From positions 1 through 49,410 of the IMG/VR virus record IMGVR_UViG_3300050821_004061: DNA of 49,410 nucleotides, one strand, 5' to 3'. This stretch comes from a virus. A model generated the notes under the pieces. The model saw nothing but the letters and a program-made list of their open reading frames with translations, did no database searches and had not been told where the DNA came from. Every line of letters begins with the position of its first letter. Position 1 is the stretch's first letter. The position numbers and the translations under genes were made by a program. Positions 8,402-48,434 of the stretch are shown here, piece by piece.

Positions 8402-8620
8402 ATGAGTATCGAAAAAGCCAACGATTGCCGCACACAGATTAAAGATGCCGCCACCGATGTACTCGCGATGAAAGTTGGGATGACTGATAGTGAAGCTATT
8501 GCAAATGTAATGCTCGCTTACCGTCATCTCGAGGATGCCTCGATGCGTCTCGGCAAGGTGATACAAGCGCTCGACGGCGGCATCTCCGTATACGATAAAA
8601 AGACAACTGTGGGAGCATAA
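8402..8620 (+). CDS. Acb2/Tad1-like small protein (possible anti-CBASS/anti-Thoeris sponge)
   Basis: 72 residues with GGAG 8 bases upstream of the start. Two predicted helices form a hairpin; the second holds AYRHLEDASMRLGKVIQ, which I recognise as the signature of a widespread family of short phage proteins now grouped with the Acb2/Tad1 hairpin domain. Acb2 and Tad1 bind cyclic nucleotide signals and block CBASS or Thoeris defence (established for the type members). Whether this protein binds any such signal is inference. It ends two bases before the next start. Confidence 0.55.
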   Translation: MSIEKANDCRTQIKDAATDVLAMKVGMTDSEAIANVMLAYRHLEDASMRLGKVIQALDGGISVYDKKTTVGA

Positions 8621-10016: not shown

Positions 10017-10300
10017 TGGGAAACACAATCGTAAGTACGCCGAATCCAGAGATCCAAACGCTCGTTTACACCGTAATCCGCGCCGTCGCCACGATCCTCG
10101 GCACATTCGGAGTGACTTGGGGCGCGACAGTTTCCGGTGAACAATGGCAGATGATCGCGGGGGCAGTCGCGGTGTTAATAAGTGTCGGTATGTCAGTTTA
10201 CCAGAAGTTCCAAGCAGCTCGCGCCGATCATGTCAACAGCGTTGCCTCGGCGACAGTGGGTGCGCCGGTTAAAGTCGTAACACCAGGAGAATCAGGATGA
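10016..10300 (+). CDS. Holin candidate
   Basis: 94 residues with two membrane segments: VIRAVATILGTFGVTWGATV (about 21-40) and WQMIAGAVAVLISVGMSVY (about 44-62), joined by a short loop, and a polar C-terminus. Size and topology fit class II holins, and the neighbours are other membrane and lipoproteins. A holin would open the inner membrane at lysis. No sequence signature proves it. Confidence 0.6.
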   Translation: MGNTIVSTPNPEIQTLVYTVIRAVATILGTFGVTWGATVSGEQWQMIAGAVAVLISVGMSVYQKFQAARADHVNSVASATVGAPVKVVTPGESG

Positions 10301-10602
10301 AGTATCTCGCACTCGCCGCCGTCGTTTTGTTGTCGGCGTGTAATGCAACGGTTGCGATCTCGAATGATGTCGCCGCCGCCGAAGTGTCTCTCACCGCCGC
10401 CGAGCAGGCCGCCTTGATTTACACGAACCGGCCCCGTTGTGGTGGCACCGTCACCTTGTGCTCCGACCCCGCTACCGTCGCCAAGATCAAGGCGCTCGAT
10501 AACCAAGCATATACCGCCGTCACTATGGCCCGCGATAACAAAGGTACACTGTCGGCCGCAATCGCCGCCGTCTCCGCATTCTCCCTTGCTATCCCGAAGT
10601 AG
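10297..10602 (+). CDS. Lipoprotein with lipobox
   Basis: 101 residues, ATGA overlap with the holin candidate. Signal peptide of type II: MKYLALAAVVLLSAC with lipobox LSAC and acylation at Cys15. The mature part is Ala-rich and helical with two cysteines (RCGG...LCSD). Expected to be anchored in the outer or inner membrane of a Gram-negative host. Could be a spanin partner or exclusion factor. Confidence 0.72.
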   Translation: MKYLALAAVVLLSACNATVAISNDVAAAEVSLTAAEQAALIYTNRPRCGGTVTLCSDPATVAKIKALDNQAYTAVTMARDNKGTLSAAIAAVSAFSLAIPK

Positions 10603-14117: not shown

Positions 14118-14706
14118 TGGCCGCGCCACCACGCTCCTCACGGAGCAGCCAAATGCATCCGGTACAACGGAACCGGCTACGGAAACAAAAACGGAAACTG
14201 AGACGTCGGCGACTCCGTTTGATGCCGCCAAGCTCACTTTCCCCGACGACTTCGGCAAACCCGATGCGGGAATGTTGGAGAAGTTCGCCGAAATAGCTAA
14301 GTCCGCGAACCTTTCGCAGGAAGCGGCACAGCAGTTGGCGAACTTGCATACCGAGACCAGTAAAGCTGCTTCGGAAGCGAATTTGCAAGCTTGGTCGCGG
14401 ACGATTGAGGCCTGGGAAACAGAGATCAAATCCGACCCTGTTATCGGCGGCGATAAACTCGAGGGCGTGAAAGCGTCCGTCGCTAAAGTCGTTCAAGATC
14501 CCCGATTCGCAACCCCAGGATTTATTGAGGCACTAAACCTCACTGGCTTTGGTTCAAATCCCGCCGCAGTTCGCTTCTTCGCCAAAATTGCATCTGCATT
14601 GACGGAGGGGAGCGCGGTTCAGGGGTCTCCACCGGGGCCACCGCAGCGTACCGCAGCCCAACGCATGTATCCCAACAACCCATCTTCCGAAGCAGCAGGT
14701 GATTAA
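14017..14706 (+). CDS. Capsid assembly scaffold protein (probable)
   Basis: 229 residues. Acidic, with a long Pro/Ser/Thr-rich N-terminus and a helical core (MLEKFAEIAKSANLSQEAA, QLANLHTETSKAAS) and a GSNPAAVRFFAKIASAL segment, typical of phage scaffold proteins placed directly before the capsid gene. Two tandem ATGs (14017, 14020). Overlaps the Bbp19-like gene by 101 bases, unusually long here, so the start could be later. Ends in TAATG with the capsid gene. Confidence 0.82.
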   Translation: MMSDSPPAQPTTETPSPGSAAAPSAAPSSTTAPDGRATTLLTEQPNASGTTEPATETKTETETSATPFDAAKLTFPDDFGKPDAGMLEKFAEIAKSANLSQEAAQQLANLHTETSKAASEANLQAWSRTIEAWETEIKSDPVIGGDKLEGVKASVAKVVQDPRFATPGFIEALNLTGFGSNPAAVRFFAKIASALTEGSAVQGSPPGPPQRTAAQRMYPNNPSSEAAGD

Positions 14707-15749
14707 TGGCAACAATTGGTTCAACCGCCCTTACGTTCGCTGATTGGGCGAAGCGTATGGACGATGATGGTCGCATCACTTCGATCGTCGAAATCCTCTC
14801 ACAAACCAACGAGATCATGGACGACATGCTCGTTGTCGAGGGTAATCTCCCGACCGGGCACAAGACCACGATTCGAACTGGCCTCCCAACCGCGACGTGG
14901 CGCTTGCTCAATTACGGCGTTCCGAACGGAAAATCCACTACGGCACAGGTGGTCGATACGATCGGTAATCTCGAGACGTTCGCCGTAATCGACCGCGACC
15001 TCGCCGACCTCAACGGTAACACCGCCGAGTTTCGCCTGTCGGAGGTCCGTGCGTTCCTCGAGGGTATGACGCAGCAAGTCGCATCCACCCTTATTTACGG
15101 CAACGTCGCCGTGAACCCCGAGCGGTTTATGGGGATGGCACCGCGTTACAACTCGGTATCGACTGGTACGGCGCAGACAGCTGCGAACGTCATCGATATG
15201 GGCGGCACTGGATCAACTAATACTTCGATCTGGATCGCAACCTGGGGTGCCGATACAATGCACGGTATTTTCCCCAAGGGCAAAATGACCGGCCTGTTGC
15301 ATGAGGACCAGGGCTTGTGGCCAGTTCTCGACGCCAACTCGAATACATACATGGCATACCGTGACCACTTCAAATGGGAGGTCGGTTTGTCGTTACGTGA
15401 TTGGCGATACGTCGTTCGCCTCGCGAATATCGACGTGACGCTGCTGAACGGCGTCAACGCAGCCAATATATTGAACGGTTTAGTCCGCGGATTACGTCGT
15501 CTGCCGACTGCGATGGCTGCTGCCTCGCCGGTGCAATCGAGCGACGCGCCGACGATCCGGGGGCCGATGGGTCGTCAGATTATCTACTGCAATCGCGTCG
15601 TGTCCACGTACCTCGACCTCCAGGCGATGAATAAGACCAACGTCTTGCTGGCGATGCGGGAGTTTGAAGGACATGTAGTGACAACATTCCGCGGTATTCC
15701 GGTTCGCACCGTCGATGCCATTCTCAATACCGAAGCTCGGTTGACCTAA
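14706..15749 (+). CDS. Major capsid protein
   Basis: 347 residues, TAATG overlap with the scaffold. LTFADWAKRMDDDGRI at the start, then LSQTNEIMDDMLVVEGN and KTTIRTGLPTATWRLLN follow the N-arm and E-loop of HK97-fold capsids in podoviruses close to Bordetella phage BPP-1. The C-terminal part ends with GIPVRTVDAILNTEARL, the P-domain loop. Placement after scaffold and before a cement protein supports the call. Confidence 0.92.
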   Translation: MATIGSTALTFADWAKRMDDDGRITSIVEILSQTNEIMDDMLVVEGNLPTGHKTTIRTGLPTATWRLLNYGVPNGKSTTAQVVDTIGNLETFAVIDRDLADLNGNTAEFRLSEVRAFLEGMTQQVASTLIYGNVAVNPERFMGMAPRYNSVSTGTAQTAANVIDMGGTGSTNTSIWIATWGADTMHGIFPKGKMTGLLHEDQGLWPVLDANSNTYMAYRDHFKWEVGLSLRDWRYVVRLANIDVTLLNGVNAANILNGLVRGLRRLPTAMAAASPVQSSDAPTIRGPMGRQIIYCNRVVSTYLDLQAMNKTNVLLAMREFEGHVVTTFRGIPVRTVDAILNTEARLT

Positions 15750-15760
15750 GGAGACGACAA

Positions 15761-16261
15761 ATGTTGGATGGAGCCCTCCAGTTTACTGGTGTAGCGGGTC
15801 TAACTACTTCGCTGACCGACTCACCAACCACTGGGACGCAGCAATCGACGAACGTCCTCGATCTACTCAACGCCCGAGACCTTGGGATCGGCGATGATCC
15901 ATCGCTCGAGTTGTTGATTCAGATCATGACGACTTTCACCGGCGGTACATCCCTTGAAGTCCAACTTCAGGGCGCCCCGGATAACGGTTCTGGCGCTCCC
16001 GGCTCGTACACAACGATGTGGGATTCGACCGCGATTGCTGAAGCATCCCTTCTGGCCGGCCGATATATCTCGAATATCACCGTGCCTCGAGTTTTGCTGC
16101 CGACTCCAACCGGCGTGTCGGCGGCGCAGGCCCTCCCGCGTTTCCTCCGGTTGCAGTATATCACCGTAGGGACACACGGTGCTGGTGCCCTGTTCGGTGC
16201 AATCGTGCTGGATCGCCAGGATTATGTGGCGTATCCTCCCGGTATCGTGATCGCGAATTAG
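15761..16261 (+). CDS. Capsid cement protein, Bbp16-like
   Basis: 166 residues with AAGGAGA upstream. Beta-rich: GDDPSLELLIQIMTTF, SLEVQLQGAPDNGSG, FLRLQYITVGTHGAGALF. This is the composition and order of the Bbp16 family, which clamps neighbouring capsomers on the outside of the BPP-1 head. It directly follows the capsid gene, as in that phage. Confidence 0.82.
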   Translation: MLDGALQFTGVAGLTTSLTDSPTTGTQQSTNVLDLLNARDLGIGDDPSLELLIQIMTTFTGGTSLEVQLQGAPDNGSGAPGSYTTMWDSTAIAEASLLAGRYISNITVPRVLLPTPTGVSAAQALPRFLRLQYITVGTHGAGALFGAIVLDRQDYVAYPPGIVIAN

Positions 16262-16768: not shown

Positions 16769-17172
16769 TGCCCCGATATCGATTGCTCTCCGCACACTAT
16801 TCGGAAGAGGATAAATGGCTGCCGGGTGATAAGGAGGCCGCCGATAGTAACGGTCCGATTACCGGATACCAACTCGACGAGAAGGGTAATCAGGTACTCG
16901 ACGAGAAGGGTCAGCCGATCGCCTTTAGAGGTACGGTCGTCGGCGATGGCACTCCGCATAAATGGACTCGCGATCCGACACCAGATATGGTCGGACTCGA
17001 CGAGGAATCGCAGGCGTTAGTCGAAATCGCAAAGAAGCGTGGCGATGGCCTCGATCCAGTTGACCGCCTTCCGTTGACAGTCGATACGCCGCAGTTATCG
17101 CTCGGCGATCTCCAAGCGCTTGCGGAACGCGCTGGATTCCGCCTCGTACCGGAGAAGAAACATGCTGCGTAA
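16768..17172 (+). CDS. Virion-region hypothetical protein B (PTPDM motif)
   Basis: 134 residues. YRLLSAHYSEEDKWLPGDKE at the start suggests a small beta domain binding or capping; VGDGTPHKWTRDPTPDM then DEESQALVEI follows. A C-terminal helix-helix segment (LSLGDLQALAERAGF) resembles a head-joining or Rho-N-like fold. Shares its motif with the preceding gene. No function known. Confidence 0.68.
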   Translation: MPRYRLLSAHYSEEDKWLPGDKEAADSNGPITGYQLDEKGNQVLDEKGQPIAFRGTVVGDGTPHKWTRDPTPDMVGLDEESQALVEIAKKRGDGLDPVDRLPLTVDTPQLSLGDLQALAERAGFRLVPEKKHAA

Positions 17173-17581
17173 GCTCTTCTTCGCTGCGTTCGTCGCGTTC
17201 GTCCCGGTGGCTGGGTGGGCGCAAGTTGTCGCTCCCGGCGTCGAATACTTCCTAGGCCCGTCGTTAGGAAAGAAGTGGGAGGCCGCGGGATCACAGACCG
17301 GCGGTGTCAACGCCCAAACCGGAACGTCATATACTATCGCCGACACCGATATGGGTAAACTCGTTACGTTTAATAACGGGTCGGCGGTTACTGTTACTCT
17401 ACCCGCTGCGACAACCGCCGGCTTCGGTACATATCACGAGTTTAAGGTACTGAACCTCGGCGCGGGGACGGTAACGATCACGCCGACGACAAGCACGATC
17501 AACGGCGGCGCGACCAAGACATACGCGCAAAATGCGAGTGGTTCGATTCGGAGTGACAGTACGAACTATTTCGCATATTAG
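17162..17581 (+). CDS. Secreted-looking beta protein, tail cassette gene 1
   Basis: 139 residues from ATG 17162 with GGAG 7 bases upstream. Starts with a Sec signal peptide (LRKLFFAAFVAFVPVAGWA, predicted cut after Ala20). The mature part repeats a beta pattern (TSYTIADTDMGKLVTFNNGS, then AVTVTLP, VTITPTTSTINGG) common in phage tail fibre and spike proteins. A signal peptide is not expected for a protein assembled in the cytoplasm. First of seven such genes in a row. Confidence 0.78.
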   Translation: MLRKLFFAAFVAFVPVAGWAQVVAPGVEYFLGPSLGKKWEAAGSQTGGVNAQTGTSYTIADTDMGKLVTFNNGSAVTVTLPAATTAGFGTYHEFKVLNLGAGTVTITPTTSTINGGATKTYAQNASGSIRSDSTNYFAY

Positions 17582-17590
17582 GGGGCGATA

Positions 17591-17932
17591 ATGCGTTTTC
17601 TTATTGCGGCCCTTCTTTCGCTGTGGTTCGGTACAGTTTGGGCAGCGCCTGCCGACGACGGGCAAACCGCTGGCTCTCGGCTATGGACCCTTAATCAAGC
17701 GCGTTCCGGAATCGCTGTAACAGCGAGTGATTCAACAGACCTTACACCAAAACCGACTCGCGCAATATTTATTGGGGGATCGGCCGCGTGTAATATCGCC
17801 GTCCGCATGGCTGACGATGGTACAACGGCTGTTACACTCGCTAATGTCCAACCGGGTCAGGTACTTCCGATTCAAGTTAACCGTGTCATGAGCACGAATA
17901 CCACATGTACCGGTATCGTAGCTTTTTATTAG
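17591..17932 (+). CDS. Secreted-looking spike-base-like protein, tail cassette gene 2
   Basis: 113 residues. Signal peptide RFLIAALLSLWFGTVWA with a cut before APADDG. The mature part (LTPKPTRAIFIGGSAACNIAVR, split by residue limits into two strands, ... [23 protein letters not shown]) reads like the small beta domain called spike base protein, RCAP_rcc01079 family, from alphaproteobacterial phage-like particles. It would sit at the base of a tail spike. Two cysteines could pair if exported. Confidence 0.68.
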   Translation: MRFLIAALLSLWFGTVWAAPADDGQTAGSRLWTLNQARSGIAVTASDSTDLTPKPTRAIFIGGSAACNIAVRMADDGTTAVTLANVQPGQVLPIQVNRVMSTNTTCTGIVAFY

Positions 17933-18120
17933 CAACAGTTATATTGACGGCTGCTGGTGTAGCTATAGCTCACGATCTCGGGATGGGGATGGGTATACCG
18001 GAGGTTCGCGGGTTAAAGGGAACGCCGCCGGTCACAAGTGGCTGTCTCCTCATTTCCGGCACGACGACTAACTGCCTCTTAATCAATGGGACGACAACAA
18101 ATGCGCTACTTATCAAGTAA
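17905..18120 (+). CDS. Small secreted-looking protein with GTTTN repeats, tail cassette gene 3
   Basis: 71 residues, overlapping the previous gene by 28 bases in another frame. Signal peptide [18 protein letters not shown]. The C-terminus is a short tandem repeat: [25 protein letters not shown]. The repeated hydrophobic/GTTTN units could form a beta-roll edge. Start lacks a clear ribosome binding site. Function unknown. Confidence 0.6.
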
Positions 18121-19534
18121 AGCGGCCGTTGTCGCTCTCTTACTGTCGACGTCGTCGGCGTTTGGGCAGGGGCGAATAGATCAACTTGCGGCCGGCGCTG
18201 CGGTAAGTGGCACCGATAAAATAGGTAATTGTCAGGGTTGTAGCGCTGCCGTAAATATGGTTGGCACTACACTCGCACAAGTTTTAACGTATATTCAAGG
18301 TGCAATTGCGGTTCCAGTTGGGCAAGTTACAGGACTTGGAACTGGTATTGGAACTGCGCTCGGCGTTAATGTTGGAAGTGCTGGTTCGATTCTCGTTAAT
18401 GGCGGTGCATTAGGGACACCATCATCTGGCACAGCAACCAATCTGACGGGATTGCCGCTTTCGACGGGTGTTACCGGAAACCTCTCAGTTAATAACCTCA
18501 ACTCCGGCACAAGCGCATCATCCTCGACCTTCTGGCGGGGCGATGGGACTTGGGCAACGCCTGCGGGTGGTAGTGGACTCACGGTAGGCACTAGCACCAT
18601 TACCAGCGGCACAACCAACCGACTGCTTTACGATAATGGCGGCGTATTAGGCGAAGCGATCGTCGGAAGCGGCCTATCACTTTCTGCCGGCACACTGACC
18701 GCAACCGCCGGTGGTGGGGGCACCGTCACAAATACGGCGGGCACACTTACTGCGCATGCGCCGATCATTGGTAATGGTTCTGCCGATGTAAAAGCCACGG
18801 CGGCGATGACGAATGGGCAAGTCCTGATTGGCTCGACAGGGGCTGATCCGGTTCCTGCCGTTCCGACCGCTTCTACAGCCGACGTGCAGATCGGCGCGAG
18901 CGCGGGCGGTCTGTCGATCGGCCACTACGGCCTAACAACGGTCGGTGATGCGAATTGCGGGGCTCTTACTGCTGCTGGCACAGCGAACGTCGCATTTAAT
19001 GTTGTATTGACGGCGCCGCGCTCTTGCACACTGCCTGTCGCGAGCACGATGCAAGACGGGGCCGAGATTACTTTCGTCGATACTGGAGACGGGACAAATT
19101 ACGCGATCAACGGCGCAAATACCATCACACTAAATCGCGCGGGCTCAGATAAGATTGGCACCGGCATCACGATCGTTATGAGTGTCCCCGGTTGTTCCGT
19201 GAAGGTTAAAAAGACCGGCTCCACCGAGTGGGGCATTCCGTATAACAGTTGCCCGGCAAGCGGCACTGCCACACTTGGGACCAGTGCGATCTCGTCAGCC
19301 GCCTGCGCTGCGGCAGTCACCGTTGCAGCAAGCGGCGTACTAACTACCGATGTCGTCACGGCTTCGTTCAATGGCGATCCGACAGCGGTGACGGGCTATA
19401 TCCCGGCTACGGCGGGGATGCTGACGATCATCTCGTACCCGACCGCTGGTAACGTCAACTTCAAGGTATGCAACAACACAGGTTCTTCGATAACCCCCGG
19501 CGCGATCACGCTGAACTGGCGGGTCGCTCGATGA
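18101..19534 (+). CDS. Tail fibre-like protein with signal peptide, tail cassette gene 4
   Basis: 477 residues from ATG 18101. Signal peptide [21 protein letters not shown]. The body is Gly/Ser/Thr-rich with fibre-type repeats ([16 protein letters not shown] is the collar motif seen in many tail fibres; [16 protein letters not shown]) followed by a beta domain ([34 protein letters not shown]). Such proteins contact the host surface. Ends in ATGA with the next gene. The fibre call is by composition and motif. Confidence 0.75.
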
Positions 19535-20478
19535 AGGTTATCGCCTTTGTATTTGCGCTGACACTAGCCAGCGTAGCGGCACTTGCACAAGTCGGGTTGC
19601 CGTGGCCCGGGCCTGGTGGTGTCTCTGCCCCCGCCGGTTATCAAGGACCAGGGAATATCCTGACGGGCGCGACTATGTGGGTAGGGTTACGAGCCTACAC
19701 TGCGGCTGCCGCGACCGCACATAATAAAGCGGTCAACGTCAAGAGCACATCTCACTCTAACGAGACATGCGATATTGGCCTGGGAAGCGACGGGTTCATC
19801 GGGGGAACAGGGAGCGTTACCTCCGCCTGTTCCGGCGCTGACAATGGCGTGTCACTCTCGACCTTTTGCACCAGCAACACGGACTGTCACGTTGTCACGT
19901 TCTACGATCAGTCGGGGAACTCAAATAATCAAGTGGCCTCGACCCAGGCGGTGCTTTCCATATCCCCCCTGAAGGTCCTCTGCACGACGAGCACCCCTTA
20001 CGATACGTCGTTTAATGGCACGCCGAACATCAGCATTCCGCAGCCGGCGACCGCCTCCTATGTGGCGCAGCGCACAAGCGGGACGAGCAGCTTCAACGTT
20101 GTTGTTGGCTTTGAAACTGCAGGGAATGCCCAAGCGGGATTTAACAACGCCAGTCAGCAGCTTTTCATCTATGGCGGAAGCGCGGCGGTCGGCGTCACGA
20201 CGGGCGGGGCAGAAGGCACGCAACTCGCAGTGCAAACGACCTTCGATGGCGCGAACTCTGTCATCTACGAAAACGGCAACAACAATGCTGGACTTAGCCC
20301 AGGAACGGGATCGGCAACCTCTGGGGTTATCTCGATTTGCGTTGGTAATGGGTCGAATGGACTCGCCGGGAATTTTTGGGAAGCGGGTATCTGGCAAGGC
20401 ACGACAGCCAACCACACCAATTTTCCTTATAGCAGCATGAACAGTAACCAGCGCGGTACCAGCGGTTGGAACTTCTAA
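19531..20478 (+). CDS. Arabinofuranosidase-B-like lectin/enzyme domain protein with signal peptide, tail cassette gene 5
   Basis: 315 residues from ATG 19531. Signal peptide [18 protein letters not shown], cut before QVGLP. The body [49 protein letters not shown] follows the catalytic-domain pattern of fungal and bacterial alpha-L-arabinofuranosidase B (concanavalin fold), also seen in phage tail proteins as a sugar-binding or -cleaving domain. Probably recognises or trims host surface polysaccharide. Catalytic residues cannot be verified by eye. Confidence 0.68.
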
Positions 20479-21935
20479 TGCGCCGCATTGCCGTACTGTT
20501 AGCGTCGCTTCTCGCTCTCTGTGCAACGTCAACTGCCGGGGTCGCCGCCTGCCCCTCAGGATTGTTGGGTGTTACATGGACAGTATGTCTTGAATCCGAC
20601 AGCGGAGCTTACAAGGATGCTGGGACGACGCTGGCGGTTAATAACGATACAGTCCAGCAGTGGAATGATGCATCGGGTAACGCGAATAACGCTACCCAAT
20701 CGACCGCGCTAAACCGGCCCCCCTTCAAGACCAGCATTGTCAACGGGCTGCCTGTCCTGCGCTGTGACGGCTCGTCGAGTTTCATGCTCGGGCCGAATGT
20801 CTTCCCGACAACGCAATCCTACACGCTAATTGTTGTCTCGGTCCAGAGAGGGACATCGACCGGCAACCTCGTCAGTGGTGCTACGTCTCACGCGCTGTTC
20901 TATAATAGCACAGATACTGTAAAAGTATCTGAGGGTGGAACGACCCAGCTAACATCGACAACCCCGACAGGGGTTGGCGTCGTTGCGGTCGATATTCTGG
21001 GGGTCTATAATTCGAGCAACACCACAGCAGCCCATGCCGAGGCATTCAATCTCACTGTTAATGGTAATTACAACACAGGGATCGCGGACACATCGGTTAA
21101 CGCTTCCGATACTGCTCTACAGATTTGCGCCTTCAATAGCACAAACTTCGGTCAGGTAGACATCCTCGCCGTCTATCTCGCGAGTGGCCTACTCAACTTG
21201 ACGAACACCAACGCGGCAACCTCTTATGTAAATTCAAAGTACGGAACGACGATCGCAAAGTTCGGCACAGCGCGACAGCACATCGTGTTCGCCGACAGTA
21301 TGGGGGTCGGGTTCTTAGGTCAGCCTCCATTCGCGATGATCGCGCCGAACGACCAGCATGCCTTCGCAGTCAATCTTGGCTCGCAGGGCGCGTACATGCT
21401 GGACCTGAAGAACAGCTCGGCTAGCGCGGTTAACCCACTGTTGATTAGCGCGCCGACTCTTGGGCAGAGCTTCATCACCATCCTGGCTGGCGGGAACGAT
21501 CTCGTCCTCGGTGGGCGCACTGCGGCGCAGGTTTACGCTGACTTTCAAACTCTCTGTTCTAATCTGCACGCGGCGAATTCAAATACCCTCGTCGGCATCA
21601 TTGATATGCCGCCTCGGTCAGCAGGAAGTGAGGCGGCACGCACGACGCTCAACGGTGACTACGACGCGGATACCTGCGCTGATTACCATGTCAAGACGAC
21701 CTGCAACGTAGCGATGTGGGCGGCGGGGGCTAATACCAATTCGCTGTGGTACGCCAATGACAACCTCCACCCCAATGCTAATGGGCATTCGATCATTGCA
21801 GGGTGTCTAGAGGCGGCGATTGCTGGACTATCGATTAACGCGCCTGTTGGAAGCGCCTCCCACGCTTCACTGAAACAGCCGGCTAACGATAACGATCTGC
21901 CGTTCCAAATGGTCGCCGGGGAACGGCGACGATGA
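20478..21935 (+). CDS. Tail spike with LamG-like and SGNH esterase domains and signal peptide, tail cassette gene 6
   Basis: 485 residues from ATG 20478 (TAATG). Signal peptide RRIAVLLASLLALCATSTA. Residues about 60-240 form a LamG/concanavalin-like domain (VQQWNDASGNANNATQ). Residues about 268-470 are an SGNH hydrolase: nucleophile in FADSMG (Ser274), block III GGND (Asn340), and DNLHPN with Asp428 and His431. Likely deacetylates host surface polysaccharide. The set of catalytic residues looks complete. Confidence 0.78.
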   Translation: MRRIAVLLASLLALCATSTAGVAACPSGLLGVTWTVCLESDSGAYKDAGTTLAVNNDTVQQWNDASGNANNATQSTALNRPPFKTSIVNGLPVLRCDGSSSFMLGPNVFPTTQSYTLIVVSVQRGTSTGNLVSGATSHALFYNSTDTVKVSEGGTTQLTSTTPTGVGVVAVDILGVYNSSNTTAAHAEAFNLTVNGNYNTGIADTSVNASDTALQICAFNSTNFGQVDILAVYLASGLLNLTNTNAATSYVNSKYGTTIAKFGTARQHIVFADSMGVGFLGQPPFAMIAPNDQHAFAVNLGSQGAYMLDLKNSSASAVNPLLISAPTLGQSFITILAGGNDLVLGGRTAAQVYADFQTLCSNLHAANSNTLVGIIDMPPRSAGSEAARTTLNGDYDADTCADYHVKTTCNVAMWAAGANTNSLWYANDNLHPNANGHSIIAGCLEAAIAGLSINAPVGSASHASLKQPANDNDLPFQMVAGERRR

Positions 21936-22021
21936 CCCTCCACCGCATCACCACCAAGGCCCTGCTGCGCTCGCCCATGCGAGGCTACGAACTCCAGCGC
22001 AATCCTGCGGCTGGGGATTAG
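21932..22021 (+). CDS. Possible 29-residue peptide
   Basis: ATG 21932 overlaps the previous stop (ATGA) and the frame ends 15 bases before the next gene. The peptide is basic (LHRITTKALLRSPMRGYELQR). No own ribosome binding site; may be a coupling peptide or chance. Confidence 0.35.
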   Translation: MTLHRITTKALLRSPMRGYELQRNPAAGD

Positions 22022-22036
22022 AAGGAGAAGTGAAAA

Positions 22037-22255
22037 ATGGCATCGATTATTGTTCGCGCCCCGGCTGATAGCCTGGGTCGTAAAGCCACCAAAAAGATGG
22101 GGCGCGGTTTTCTCGACATGATGATGCATGGGAAGAAGACTGGGGATCACATCGAGATCACCGAGACGATCGCACCCGGCGCCTATACCTTCGGGCACAG
22201 CGAGACCCCGGAAGGGCACATCTCGATCGATCTTACCTCCGGAAAAGAGCCCTAA
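22037..22255 (+). CDS. Small hypothetical protein
   Basis: 72 residues with a strong AAGGAGAAG 8 bases upstream, so probably well translated. IIVRAPADSLGRKATKKMG at the start; the second half reads as beta strands (IEITETIAPGAYTFGH, HISIDL). No signal peptide, unlike the neighbours. Could be a chaperone or cap for a tail protein; no evidence. Confidence 0.65.
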   Translation: MASIIVRAPADSLGRKATKKMGRGFLDMMMHGKKTGDHIEITETIAPGAYTFGHSETPEGHISIDLTSGKEP

Positions 22256-22276
22256 GCCCAAGCCGATCTGCCGCCG

Positions 22277-22507
22277 ATGCCACCTGCGTCACGCCTTGAT
22301 AAAAGCAGGAACTGCTTCACCTGGGCGTGGCGCAAGTGGCGCATCGAGGGCGGCTTTATCGCCTTTGCGATCGCCGAGGGCTGGCCCCGCTTCTATTGGT
22401 GCGCATCGATCGAGGGTGAATATCGTCGACCTATTTATCGTTATCGTATTCCTTGGAATATATTTTGGCATAAAGGACGCGTTGAACGTCAATCTGGAGC
22501 GCCTTAA
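22277..22507 (+). CDS. Conserved small phage protein (WxxW/IEGGF type)
   Basis: 76 residues. NCFTWAWRKWRIEGGFIAF, then GWPRFYWCASIEG and YRIPWNIFWHKGRV match a pattern I have seen in small late proteins of many phages (tryptophan-rich, with a strand-turn-strand core). Start at ATG 22277 is uncertain; no strong ribosome binding site. Ends in TAATG with the next gene. Confidence 0.65.
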   Translation: MPPASRLDKSRNCFTWAWRKWRIEGGFIAFAIAEGWPRFYWCASIEGEYRRPIYRYRIPWNIFWHKGRVERQSGAP

Positions 22508-22773
22508 TGCGTGTTAAACTCCTTCGACAGCATATGATCGATGACGCACTCCGAGAACCAAATGAGATTCTCGAGGTTTCCGTTGTTACACCGTATATGG
22601 AGGGTCTCGATCCAGAGGCGCGAAAGGCGATCTACGACGAGAAAGTGCGAGTATTTGGACGTTGGGTATATGATGAACATAACGTTCAATACTTGCTCGA
22701 TGATCCACCGATAGAGCGCCCGATTGAGGAAAATCAGCCGGTGCGACGAATTCCAGGAGTAGGACCGAGATGA
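22507..22773 (+). CDS. Hypothetical protein
   Basis: 88 residues, TAATG start, ATGA end. Acidic and helical: MIDDALREPNEILEVSVVTP, DPEARKAIYDEKVRVFG, and a Pro/Arg tail. No family recognised. Placed between secreted-looking spike genes. Confidence 0.68.
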   Translation: MRVKLLRQHMIDDALREPNEILEVSVVTPYMEGLDPEARKAIYDEKVRVFGRWVYDEHNVQYLLDDPPIERPIEENQPVRRIPGVGPR

Positions 22774-24539
22774 AACGACTTGCACTTTTATTGTGCTTTA
22801 TTGCGGGTGTGGCGCTAGCACAGACTGGCGCTAGGACACCACAGGTCAATGATGTTTTCACGTATTTCGGCCCAACGATAGGTGGCGATTGGGGACCGCC
22901 GCCCGGGAATGCAGCTGGCCCAATTATTCCTGACAACGCTACGCTCAAAACATATGCTACCACGCAGTACACATATGTAACGCGACAATCATTCTCATCA
23001 ACCGTTTACGCCCCACCACTGGCATATATTGCAAGTGGAAGTCCATGCGTATTGAACGCCGGCGCGGGCGACAATGGGAGTCAAGTACTATCGGCTGACG
23101 GCAAGTGCTGGCTCGCACGTTTTCCAAAAGGTCCAACTGATGCGCGTGAGTGGGGAACCGTCGCCGATAGTGGTGTAACAGATAATACTGCTGCAATTAA
23201 TGCGTGTCTCGCTTACGCGGCGACGATTCAAGTTGAGTGTTTATTACCGGGGACACCGGGTAATTCTTGGATTAAATCGGGCGGGATCATTGTACCACCA
23301 GGTCTGTCGGCGACATTTGCCGATGGCGGGCGCACTGGCTTAAGAGGGCAGGGACAAAACCAGACACTCATTAAGAGTACTGTTACCGGTACAAATTGTG
23401 CTATCACGTATTCATTTACTTACGGAGTTAATGGCGAGGGGTATACGGGCGGCGATTTCCAAATCATTGGTACTGACGTCGGCTACGGTATTTGCACAAC
23501 CGGCCTCACGTCTGGTACATTCAAGGACTTTATGATACAACATTTTACGATCGGTTTATACGCACTTGATACTATCCGTCTCCATCTCGAAAATCCTACG
23601 TTTGTATTTAATGGACAGCATATTGCTGCGGCAAGTGCCAGTAATTCACATCCAAATCAGTGGGTTATTATTAATCCAAAAGTAAGCGGCTCCACAAACG
23701 ATGGATTTATATTCACGAATGCTGCCGACATTGATATCTATGGCGGGGATTTCGAGTCAAATAATCAATCAAATAATCCTGGGCACGCTACTATCTTTAT
23801 GAATGGCGCACCAAGTGAGGGCAAAAAAGGTTTATCTATATTCGGCGGTTATTACTCTGCAAACGGCGGGGACGCCGATTTCCTCTTCCTTCAAAATAAT
23901 GGAGAGAACGCTGGTACACATGGTATCTATGGCGCCGAGGTACAACGCAGTAACGCCACAACTTTCACGACGAATAATGTTCGTGTCGTAAATAATGGAA
24001 CTAATCTCACCACGATCGCACTCTACGGTAATTCGTTTGGTGCCTTTAACACATATGTGCAAAGTGCCCTGCGCCCAGATATAGGTATTGGAACGCCAGC
24101 ACACGCGGTTATTGTCGGGGCAGAATCGAATTATTTTCAGCCTGGAGTTGATGCACCTGGGCCACTCATTGTCGATAATACTGTCCCGGCGACTTGGACA
24201 CCTGTTGATGCAAGTGGTGCCGGCCTCACGTTCACTTCAGTAAGTGCAGTTTACACGCGGAAAAATAACGTTATAACTGCGTCGTTTTCTCTTACATTCC
24301 CAACTACTGCGAGTGCAACTCCGATTCTTATAGGCGGCCTTCCAGTCCCTGTTCCAACACCGTACGGTTCCTCAGTTAATGTCCTTTCGTGCTCTGGTAC
24401 AGCACTGTTACTGGTAGGCATAGCACAAGTGGGTTCCAGTAATTTCTCAATTGCTACATCAAGCGCAGGTAGTGCTGTACAGAATACGACGTTACAAAAT
24501 CTAATCGTCCGTGGAACAATTATTTATCCGGCGTCGTAA
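22770..24539 (+). CDS. Beta-helix tail spike with signal peptide, tail cassette gene 7
   Basis: 589 residues. Signal peptide KRLALLLCFIAGVALA, cut before QTGAR. Residues about 130-150 (DAREWGTVADSGVTDNTAAI) are the entry segment of pectate-lyase-3-type beta-helix spikes; long runs of Asn/Gly-rich strands follow (IDIYGGDFESNNQ, ...GLSIFGGYYSANGG). The last 120 residues are a beta-sandwich cap (ITASFSLTFPTTASATPILI). Probable polysaccharide depolymerase or receptor-binding spike; no catalytic residues claimed. Confidence 0.83.
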   Translation: MKRLALLLCFIAGVALAQTGARTPQVNDVFTYFGPTIGGDWGPPPGNAAGPIIPDNATLKTYATTQYTYVTRQSFSSTVYAPPLAYIASGSPCVLNAGAGDNGSQVLSADGKCWLARFPKGPTDAREWGTVADSGVTDNTAAINACLAYAATIQVECLLPGTPGNSWIKSGGIIVPPGLSATFADGGRTGLRGQGQNQTLIKSTVTGTNCAITYSFTYGVNGEGYTGGDFQIIGTDVGYGICTTGLTSGTFKDFMIQHFTIGLYALDTIRLHLENPTFVFNGQHIAAASASNSHPNQWVIINPKVSGSTNDGFIFTNAADIDIYGGDFESNNQSNNPGHATIFMNGAPSEGKKGLSIFGGYYSANGGDADFLFLQNNGENAGTHGIYGAEVQRSNATTFTTNNVRVVNNGTNLTTIALYGNSFGAFNTYVQSALRPDIGIGTPAHAVIVGAESNYFQPGVDAPGPLIVDNTVPATWTPVDASGAGLTFTSVSAVYTRKNNVITASFSLTFPTTASATPILIGGLPVPVPTPYGSSVNVLSCSGTALLLVGIAQVGSSNFSIATSSAGSAVQNTTLQNLIVRGTIIYPAS

Positions 24540-25339
24540 TGGACTCAACCACAATCTGTAATATGGCGCTTGCAGAGATCGGTACGCGCTCGAAGATCAC
24601 ATCGCTGACGGATGGTAGCTCCGAAGCGAACGTGTGTAATTTATATTATACGAGCGTGAGGGATCAGGCGCTGCGGGCTGCGCGATGGAACTTTGCTAAA
24701 CACGTTGATACCGTAACACTATGGAAAGCGTTACCGGGAACACCGGAGAATCCGACGCCGGCGACTTTGACGGGTTGGCAGCGTACATATCCGCCGCCGC
24801 CGTGGCTTTATTCATACGCGCTTCCCACCGATTTCCTCTACGCCCGCTGCGTTATTCCGCAACCAGATATATCTACGTTATCCCCTCCGTTATATCCTGT
24901 CGCCGGCACGATGCTCTCACTCCCGCGAGTGATGCGAGTACCGTTTGGCGTATCTATCGACCATTATGATACAAGCGGAAATGTGCAGACGCCGCAGAAG
25001 AAGGTATTTTCCACTAACGCACAAGTGCCGCTTCTCGAATATACGTATCAATGTACCGACGAAAACTTGTTCGACAGTGAGTTCGTGATGACGATGGCGT
25101 TGGCGATGGCTGCTCGCCTCGCAATCGCTCTTATGTCCGACAAAGCGATGGCGCAACTCAAGGCGCAGACCGCGAATGAGTATATTGCGAACACACGAGC
25201 AATGGATGGAAATGAGGGATTGACGGTGCTTGATCACACGCCTGATTGGCTCCGAATTCGCGGCGTTTCATCACAGTATTACAATCCCGATTTTTGGTAT
25301 CCTTACGGTCCGTTATTCACGATGGGCGCTTATGCCTGA
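24539..25339 (+). CDS. Tail tubular protein A (gp11-like)
   Basis: 266 residues. ICNMALAEIGTRSKITSL, then CNLYYTSVRDQALRAARWNFA are hallmarks of the podoviral tail-tube A/adaptor family. A proline-rich loop and YALPTDFLYARCV follow. It forms the ring between portal and nozzle. TAATG coupling with the spike before it. Confidence 0.9.
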   Translation: MDSTTICNMALAEIGTRSKITSLTDGSSEANVCNLYYTSVRDQALRAARWNFAKHVDTVTLWKALPGTPENPTPATLTGWQRTYPPPPWLYSYALPTDFLYARCVIPQPDISTLSPPLYPVAGTMLSLPRVMRVPFGVSIDHYDTSGNVQTPQKKVFSTNAQVPLLEYTYQCTDENLFDSEFVMTMALAMAARLAIALMSDKAMAQLKAQTANEYIANTRAMDGNEGLTVLDHTPDWLRIRGVSSQYYNPDFWYPYGPLFTMGAYA

Positions 25340-47629: not shown

Positions 47630-47767
47630 TCAACTCGTCGACACAACTGATGTCGGCTCCGGTATGACGGCGGTGGCATTCATTGGTGCGGGTGGGTTCG
47701 TTGGCGTGGCGTTCAGAGCCGCCAGCACGTCGGCGAACGCGCCTTCCGTATCGCCCGGCGCGGCCAT
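47630..47767 (-). CDS. Small Pro/Ala/Thr-rich protein
   Basis: 45 residues; below usual cut-offs. ATG 47767 overlaps the HNH stop as TGATG with GGGAGGAAG upstream. AAPGDTEGAFADVLAALN is helical; the rest (TPTNPPAPMNATAVIPEP) is disordered. Ends just before the promoter of the next gene. Function unknown. Confidence 0.6.
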   Translation of the reverse strand: MAAPGDTEGAFADVLAALNATPTNPPAPMNATAVIPEPTSVVSTS

Positions 47768-48231
47768 CACTTCCTCCCAAGACAGTGTGATAAATCCCGC
47801 AGATCCGCCATGAAGCACGCTTGAGCCACCTTGATAGGCAGCGCTCCGTGGCATACCTCGCGGCAGGCCCACGCTTCATCTTCGTCTTTTGAGTGGAAGT
47901 TCTGTTGCGCCCAGAGATTCGGGGCTTCGTCCGCGCCACCGAGACATAATGGGACGCGGTGATCGATTTCCCATGATACGCGCTCCCTCCCGGTTGGGAT
48001 ATAACCGAGATCCCGCATAAATATCTCATGTTTAAGTTCGTAGGATGTAGCGCGGTGGCGTTTACTATATGTACCGCCATGAGTATCGCACACCTCGGTT
48101 GCGTCGGATGTGGCGACGAGACCTGGAGCGGCGAGCGGAGGGATGGTACCGCCGTAGGGCTCGCCGACAACAATTGCGGCGGATGCGACGACGGAGATGG
48201 CGAGGCCGGTGGCTATTGATATATTTCTCAT
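47767..48231 (-). CDS. Secreted HNH nuclease-like protein
   Basis: 154 residues from ATG 48231 (ATGA; GGAAGG upstream). Signal peptide RNISIATGLAISVVASA (residues 2-18). Mature region: EIDHRVPLCLGGADEAPNLW (88-107), a His-Me/HNH core with Asp90, His91 and Asn105, then NFHSKDEDEAWACREVC. Five cysteines may pair outside the cytoplasm. Similar small secreted HNH proteins occur in proteobacteria. An exported phage nuclease could degrade incoming DNA or scavenge nucleotides. Confidence 0.8.
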   Translation of the reverse strand: MRNISIATGLAISVVASAAIVVGEPYGGTIPPLAAPGLVATSDATEVCDTHGGTYSKRHRATSYELKHEIFMRDLGYIPTGRERVSWEIDHRVPLCLGGADEAPNLWAQQNFHSKDEDEAWACREVCHGALPIKVAQACFMADLRDLSHCLGRK

Positions 48232-48434
48232 CGTGTTGCCTTCCATCCTGAGTGACTTACTTTGATATTGTAAACATCTCGATCTATATTGTTTCTGAAA
48301 ACTATAACATGCCCATCGGCCTCGAGTACAATCTTTGCTTTATCGAGATATGCGTCGCCCTCATCACGAGCCTTAATCAAAAACTCTTCGATAAGTTCAC
48401 CGAGAGCTTCCCGCATGATATCGCGCTTAGGCAT
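48228..48434 (-). CDS. Small hypothetical protein
   Basis: 68 residues; ATG 48434 overlaps the helicase stop by 8 bases. REALGELIEEFLIKARDEGD is helical and acidic; IVFRNNIDRDVYNIKVSHS forms two strands. Coupled to the helicase upstream and the HNH gene downstream. Function unknown. Confidence 0.68.
   Translation of the reverse strand: MPKRDIMREALGELIEEFLIKARDEGDAYLDKAKIVLEADGHVIVFRNNIDRDVYNIKVSHSGWKATR

Follow-up and report, generated by a model that had tools for sequence, protein, structure and literature searches.

The window analysed here is the whole stretch of 49,410 nucleotides of the IMG/VR virus record IMGVR_UViG_3300050821_004061 (positions 1 to 49,410), and it belongs to a podovirus of the BPP-1/epsilon15 type as judged by matches to portal, capsid, cement, tail tube and internal virion proteins, the family matches behind this being phrog_332 for the portal, phrog_212 for the capsid, and phrog_394 and phrog_376 for the tail tube. 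The interval from the cement protein gene to the gene for tail tubular protein A includes seven genes, S1 to S7, each of whose products begins with a predicted Sec signal peptide, and this array of signal-bearing genes is the subject of this report. An earlier reading of the DNA (the sequence-only reading) had described seven such genes in a row; six of them are consecutive, but three small signal-less genes (starting at 22037, 22277 and 22507) precede the seventh. The seven genes of the array are as follows.

17162 to 17581, plus strand: S1, predicted exported fibre-type protein of 139 amino acids (signal rule; weak tail and fibre PHROG matches).
17591 to 17932, plus strand: S2, predicted exported head-spike base of the RCAP_Rcc01079 family, 113 amino acids (NF048002; phrog_12296, tail fiber).
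17905 to 18120, plus strand: S3, putative exported head fibre of 71 amino acids (signal rule; comparison with genes that follow spike bases).
18101 to 19534, plus strand: S4, predicted exported protein without a family match, 477 amino acids (signal rule; tblastn).
19531 to 20478, plus strand: S5, predicted exported protein of 315 amino acids (signal rule; its start overlaps the S4 stop, ATGA).
20478 to 21935, plus strand: S6, predicted exported SGNH/GDSL esterase-type protein of 485 amino acids (Pfam PF13472, E=4.3e-9; phrog_10356).
22770 to 24539, plus strand: S7, predicted exported tailspike of 589 amino acids (signal rule, motif, domain alignments, model and fold search).

Signals were called by a strict rule for Sec export and signal peptidase I cleavage, in which a positive n-region, an uncharged core with a 9-residue Kyte-Doolittle mean of at least 1.9, a small-x-small cleavage site and soluble sequence after the cut are required. 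As the sequence-only reading had claimed, all seven named genes passed this rule, compared to 66 of 2100 trials (3%) in which the first 60 residues of the seven proteins were shuffled, and 11 of the 267 mechanical open reading frames (ORFs) of the window passed it. The predicted signal peptide is MLRKLFFAAFVAFVPVAGWA in S1 (17162-17221) and MKRLALLLCFIAGVALA in S7 (22770-22820), both with the cut before Q, and those of the other proteins lie at 17591-17644 (S2), 17905-17970 (S3), about 18101-18160 (S4), 19531-19587 (S5) and 20478-20549 (S6). By inspection, neither a lipobox, [LVI][AST][GA]C, at the predicted cut nor the Tat motif S/T-RR-x-F-L-K in the N-terminus was found in the seven proteins, and where mature parts start with QC in relatives there is no small residue ahead of the Cys. 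Outside the array only two genes of the window passed the rule. One of them (10297-10602, plus strand, 101 amino acids) has a lipoprotein-like start (LLSAC), lies near holin-like genes and its product matched the phage exclusion lipoprotein Cor weakly, with a score under the cutoff; the other (47767-48246, minus strand) encodes an HNH-type protein with a signal-like N-terminus.

Relatives were found with the capsid protein in IMG/VR, the best 80 of 529 loci encoding a relative being used. In the window and these relatives, 71 of the 278 genes from the capsid to tail tube A (26%) passed the rule, as did 62 of 213 (29%) on the capsid side of contigs that end before tail tube A, and outside the interval the passes were 20 of 544 (3.7%) upstream and 1 of 127 (0.8%) downstream. 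Signals are therefore abundant in this interval of related phages (the sequence-only reading had suggested a search of related phages for these N-termini), and as many as nine signal genes were present in one phage (relative L061). Among 110 non-redundant signals, A is at -1 in 103 and Q is at +1 in 67, compared to a Q share of 3.9% in the mature parts; a preference for small residues at -1 and -3 is built into the rule, but none for Q at +1. The signal changes faster than the mature part and is still constrained, the ratio of nonsynonymous to synonymous substitution rates (dN/dS) being 0.36 for the signal and 0.16 for the mature part in 61 pairs. We regard the signals as almost certainly genuine. 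Other tandem triplets of signal-bearing genes lie at 1781-6620 of L207 and 109-1980 of L218, two phages reached by way of the S7 domain instead of the capsid.

Since the start of tail tubular protein A overlaps the S7 stop at 24539, the array forms part of the block of structural genes, and at its other end the S1 start (17162) precedes the stop (17172) of the preceding gene so that these two also overlap. The placement ahead of the tail tube genes, which had been called odd, is real, because in named isolates of the BPP-1/epsilon15 type this slot holds one or a few small genes, none with a signal. Promoter and terminator scans did no better than shuffles, and two of the three small genes between S6 and S7, when tested, gave no useful family match. 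The landmarks and the small genes are the following.

14706 to 15749, plus strand: major capsid protein (phrog_212, E=6e-86), the 5' landmark of the interval and the query for relatives.
15761 to 16261, plus strand: Bbp16-type cement protein (PF21190 Bbp16, E=7e-10), upstream of the array.
22037 to 22255, 22277 to 22507 and 22507 to 22773, plus strand: three small signal-less genes within the array (ORFs and translations), the last overlapping the S7 start.
24539 to 25339, plus strand: tail tubular protein A (phrog_394, E=2e-37), the 3' landmark.

The number of Cys residues in the mature parts of signal-bearing proteins was even in 91 and odd in 6, and in signal-less genes of the same interval it was even in 32 and odd in 48. 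Counting one protein per family left about 24 even and 5 odd (p=2.7e-4), with 23 to 20 and no bias for the signal-less ones, and among homologous signal-bearing pairs with unequal Cys numbers the difference was even in 122 cases and odd in 14. These comparisons control for relatedness only in part. In the array, mature S1 is free of Cys and five of the six Cys-containing proteins are even (S2 and S3 have 2 each, S4 has 8 in its mature part, S5 has 6 and S6 has 8), the exception being S7. An even number is expected of disulfide-bonded proteins and there is no reason for it in cytoplasmic ones.

The N-terminal domain of S7 (about 22917-23219), beyond which a predicted beta-helix follows, carries the conserved residues Cys93 (23046-23048) and Cys113 (23106-23108). 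In an alignment of this domain (A2) there were 40 IMG/VR loci in varied phages, and a signal was present in all 39 that were untruncated, 35 by the strict rule and 4 by eye, at a distance of about 26 to 215 residues from the domain; of 34 loci put to the test, 33 from IMG/VR and one from a Shewanella phage, 33 had at least two Cys within the domain. In a second alignment (A5), made of homologues reached through the signal-less sister phage L075, all 68 proteins were signal-less and none had two Cys in the domain, and a further alignment (A4) sets the two Cys columns side by side. Over the whole protein, the signal-bearing forms were 28 even to 3 odd compared to 24 to 39 in the signal-less forms (Fisher p=8.5e-7, uncorrected for kinship). 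This link between signal and Cys pair uses the strict rule together with the four by-eye cases; a relaxed rule miscalled signals in signal-less spikes and its table was dropped. The Cys patterns are explained well only by export. Judged from the sequences, export with disulfide formation is very probable, and the even parity and the link between signal and Cys pair are the best evidence for what the sequence-only reading had proposed, that the cysteines of the mature parts fit oxidation outside the cytoplasm.

The genes next to signal-bearing spikes are baseplate wedge genes (L199, L216 and L225), a tape-measure gene (L228), tail tube A (L218), a tail fibre gene (L209) and a lambda-J-like gene (L211), and since these neighbours span podo-, sipho- and myo-type tail loci the trait is not bound to one tail type. 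Searches with the S7 domain gave nothing in 385 alphaproteobacterial genomes and hits in two genomes out of 399 Burkholderiales. Among isolated phages, domain and signal are carried by the Burkholderia phages Bcep781 and Bcep43 and, going by its record, by Shewanella phage vB_Sb_QDWS. For the gene in the last (L128, 8467-10530) the annotated start is 9274, but the ORF begins at 8467, where a clear signal is encoded, and the record of Hujiaoplasma phage zrk29-1 is of equal length with the same match. Bcep43 gp48 (L129, 2622-4695) is annotated as two joined pieces and Bcep781 gp49 is one frame from a GTG start, its mature N-terminus being expected to begin with QFAPGQ.

In a Foldseek search the best matches of S7 were phage tailspikes, the AlphaFold model used being of low confidence. 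S6 matches phrog_10356, a virion structural protein family (E=8e-9), and its SGNH domain lies at about 21375-21791; its start overlaps the S5 stop (TAATG). The sequence-only reading had assigned SGNH, LamG and beta-helix domains to the array, and of these the SGNH domain holds for S6 (Pfam GDSL) and the S7 model does resemble phage tailspikes, but S4 and S5 matched neither LamG nor any other family. By tblastn, S4 has 58-69% identity in three relatives.

S2 matches NF048002 (RCAP_Rcc01079) with 59.8 bits against a cutoff of 28, its family domain being at 17699-17929, and it also matches Rcc01079 of PDB entry 6tb9 (E=3.8e-4). Its relatives without a signal are found in alphaproteobacterial genomes, in the phages P8625 and RcapNL and in the sister phages L013, L014 and L027. 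In the gene transfer agent of Rhodobacter capsulatus (RcGTA), the head fibre binds the pentamer of this base by its N-terminal residues IALGLGLGL (PMC7296036). Genes that follow signal-less spike bases start with MIGLGLDLSL (P8625) and MLGFGVRLW (L027), and the gene after gp29 of RcapNL has a similar peptide, MGLGLGIGLGLS. The mature N-terminus of S3 has LGMGMGI (17977-17997) from its residue 3 and is thus similar to the peptide by which a head fibre attaches to its spike base, this likeness being one short sequence pattern. Because S3 has 71 amino acids and the RcGTA fibre 325, so that a long C-terminal part for receptor binding is missing, S3 is not classed as an RcGTA-type fibre but only as possibly alike in its working. 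S3 also carries three near-repeats at 18010-18117.

A second docking-like motif, [YF]xGP[TS]xG, is found near the N-terminus of 12 signal-less and 3 signal-bearing proteins of the clade and nowhere else in 98,091 residues of interval proteins. In the signal-bearing proteins it stands past the cut by 9 residues in S1 (YFLGPSLG from nucleotide 17246), by 14 in S7 (YFGPTIG, 22863-22883) and by 17 in L006. Elsewhere in the window no gene could be recognised as a fibre gene. In five of the relatives examined beyond the tail genes (L231-L235), lysis-type genes or short ORFs come next after the internal virion proteins, and replication genes on the opposite strand come after those; no fibre-like gene follows the internal virion proteins, a reading made by gene lengths and N-termini without family searches on those genes. 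The array proteins are the only receptor-binding candidates of this phage, and going by these motifs and matches they are probably parts of the virion.

The best explanation, to which we give a probability of roughly 0.6, is that spikes and fibres are exported, matured in the periplasm and joined at lysis to particles built in the cytoplasm. The array would then be the receptor-binding outfit of the phage, with a head spike (S2 as base and probably S3 as fibre), tailspikes or fibres (S1 and S7) and a glycan-active part (the S6 esterase). Each protein would start as a preprotein that the Sec machinery of the host exports and signal peptidase I cleaves, and the mature form would fold in the periplasm, with Dsb enzymes at hand to form disulfides, while capsids and tail tubes would be assembled in the cytoplasm in the ordinary way. 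Once the holin had broken down the inner membrane, the two pools would mix and the mature N-termini would dock on the particles. In vitro, finished particles of P22 and T4 are known to accept spikes or fibres from outside, and joining at or after lysis seems somewhat better than an even bet.

Several points weigh against this explanation. S2 does not have the capsid-binding N-terminal stretch of its family, the match beginning at profile position 14 with positions 1-13 unmatched and the signal and a linker standing in its place, and therefore its attachment must differ. S3 is uncertain as a gene, the least certain of the seven because neither a homologue nor a clear ribosome-binding site was found for it. 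For S7, the AlphaFold model has a poor overall predicted local distance difference test score (pLDDT) of 50 and is good only around residues 50-165; S7 also has 7 Cys, an odd number. The YFGPTIG motif is in only three signal-bearing proteins. Finally, we infer the presence of mature proteins in virions, and the joining after lysis comes at the end of a chain of such reasoning.

The main rival explanation is that the proteins are exported and disulfide-bonded and yet not part of the virion; they would diffuse outside the cytoplasm as depolymerases, as decoys for receptors or as factors of superinfection exclusion, released outside or at lysis, as the sequence-only reading had also considered in outline. 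The signal and Cys evidence fits this equally well, S6 is an esterase-type protein, and among the fold matches of S7 is WceF of Pantoea stewartii, a tailspike-like enzyme with a Tat signal that trims exopolysaccharide (PMC7949094). We consider this possible but unlikely, because it would leave the phage without receptor-binding proteins, because a head-spike base, a head-fibre-like docking peptide and a YFGPTIG motif shared with signal-less structural proteins would make little sense away from the particle, and because the array overlaps structural genes at both ends. A good deal less probable is that the proteins stay anchored or exported at the inner membrane without release and are collected there by the particles, so that assembly is finished as in filamentous phages, whose exported virion proteins are known to sit at the membrane. 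Such a pick-up would suit proteins that bear both a signal and a docking motif, but the cleavage sites are well formed, as the residues at -1 and +1 show, and the S3 docking peptide is two residues past the predicted cut, so that release is expected; moreover, only 17 of the 110 mature parts have a membrane-like window.

Two further explanations are very improbable. One, which takes up the hydrophobic docking tags suggested by the sequence-only reading, is that the N-termini are uncleaved tags for docking or oligomerisation with no export, which would agree with the fact that tail proteins of tailed phages are normally cytoplasmic. This finds no support since such tags predict neither the Cys parity nor the near-perfect link between signal and Cys pair; Q at +1 also speaks against it, the docking elements (YFGPTIG and LGMGMGI) sit behind the cut, and signal-less homologues occupy the same slot in sister phages. 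The signals might otherwise be relics, with no role in the phage, of host exoprotein genes that were captured recently, and the mature domains are indeed highly varied (38 families among 128 proteins). However, the signals have been kept across the clade under constraint in spite of the long and variable linkers, the domains are of phage type, and no decayed signals were seen among the signal-bearing families.

Several known systems share features with the array. Like the RcGTA head spike, made of the Rcc01079 base and the Rcc01080 fibre, the array has a base of the Rcc01079 family and a mature S3 that starts with an xGxGx peptide resembling the Rcc01080 docking peptide; unlike it, S2 has a signal, whereas this type of base is signal-less in alphaproteobacterial genomes, and S3 is far shorter than the RcGTA fibre. 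By Foldseek the low-confidence model of S7 resembles in fold the beta-helix tailspikes K2-2 TSP, CBA120 TSP2 and Fri1 gp49, and its N-terminal domain is related to that of signal-less spikes, but neither the signal nor the conserved Cys pair was found in the signal-less homologues tested. Bcep781 gp49 and Bcep43 gp48 have the N-terminal domain of S7, a clear signal and a tail-fibre position by baseplate genes, though there each is a single gene in a myophage; their GenBank note says 'possible signal peptide domain' and no paper following this up was found. The tandem fibre genes of Bcep22-like phages were considered as a precedent and rejected, as they have no convincing signal. Filamentous phages export the virion proteins pIII and pVIII by Sec, and pIII has disulfides, but those proteins are unrelated and the phages are extruded through the membrane with no lysis and no tailed capsid. 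WceF is a tailspike-like trimer with an export signal that acts on polysaccharide, but it is a bacterial gene with a Tat signal and no virion.

In single-protein scans of IMG/VR, S1 had no relative and S2 had one, and no useful match came from tblastn searches of isolated phages with three array proteins of relatives. One relative with an array (L098) is in a contig of a metagenome-assembled genome of soil Terriglobia, perhaps through mis-binning. In prophages of Bombella, Saccharibacter, Herbaspirillum and Burkholderia whose capsids are related, the slot is free of any signal array. Limnohabitans phage DC33 (L095) is filed under Inoviridae, yet it has a podovirus-type capsid gene. A literature search, with most subscription journals outside its reach, found no general description of exported spikes in tailed phages, and the sequence-only reading, which knew of none, stands in this respect, since there is nothing beyond the GenBank remarks on the Bcep781 and Bcep43 tail fibres. 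The parts are thus of known kinds and, as far as can be told, it is their export that is apparently new for tailed phages, whose assembly is by the textbook wholly cytoplasmic.

We put it at an even chance that many tailed phages, with podo-, sipho- or myo-type tail genes, use assembly in two compartments, with heads and tails made in the cytoplasm, disulfide-bonded spikes made in the periplasm and their union at lysis. Since signal-bearing and signal-less versions of a domain occur in one slot of sister phages, the question is directly testable. Such signals can be masked when annotation pipelines choose a later start, as happened with Shewanella phage vB_Sb_QDWS. Producing such spikes as recombinant proteins in the cytoplasm would, if the proposal is true, risk misfolding. 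If it is true, the trait would belong to a common group of soil phages, and infectivity would depend on the Sec machinery, signal peptidase and Dsb enzymes of the host.

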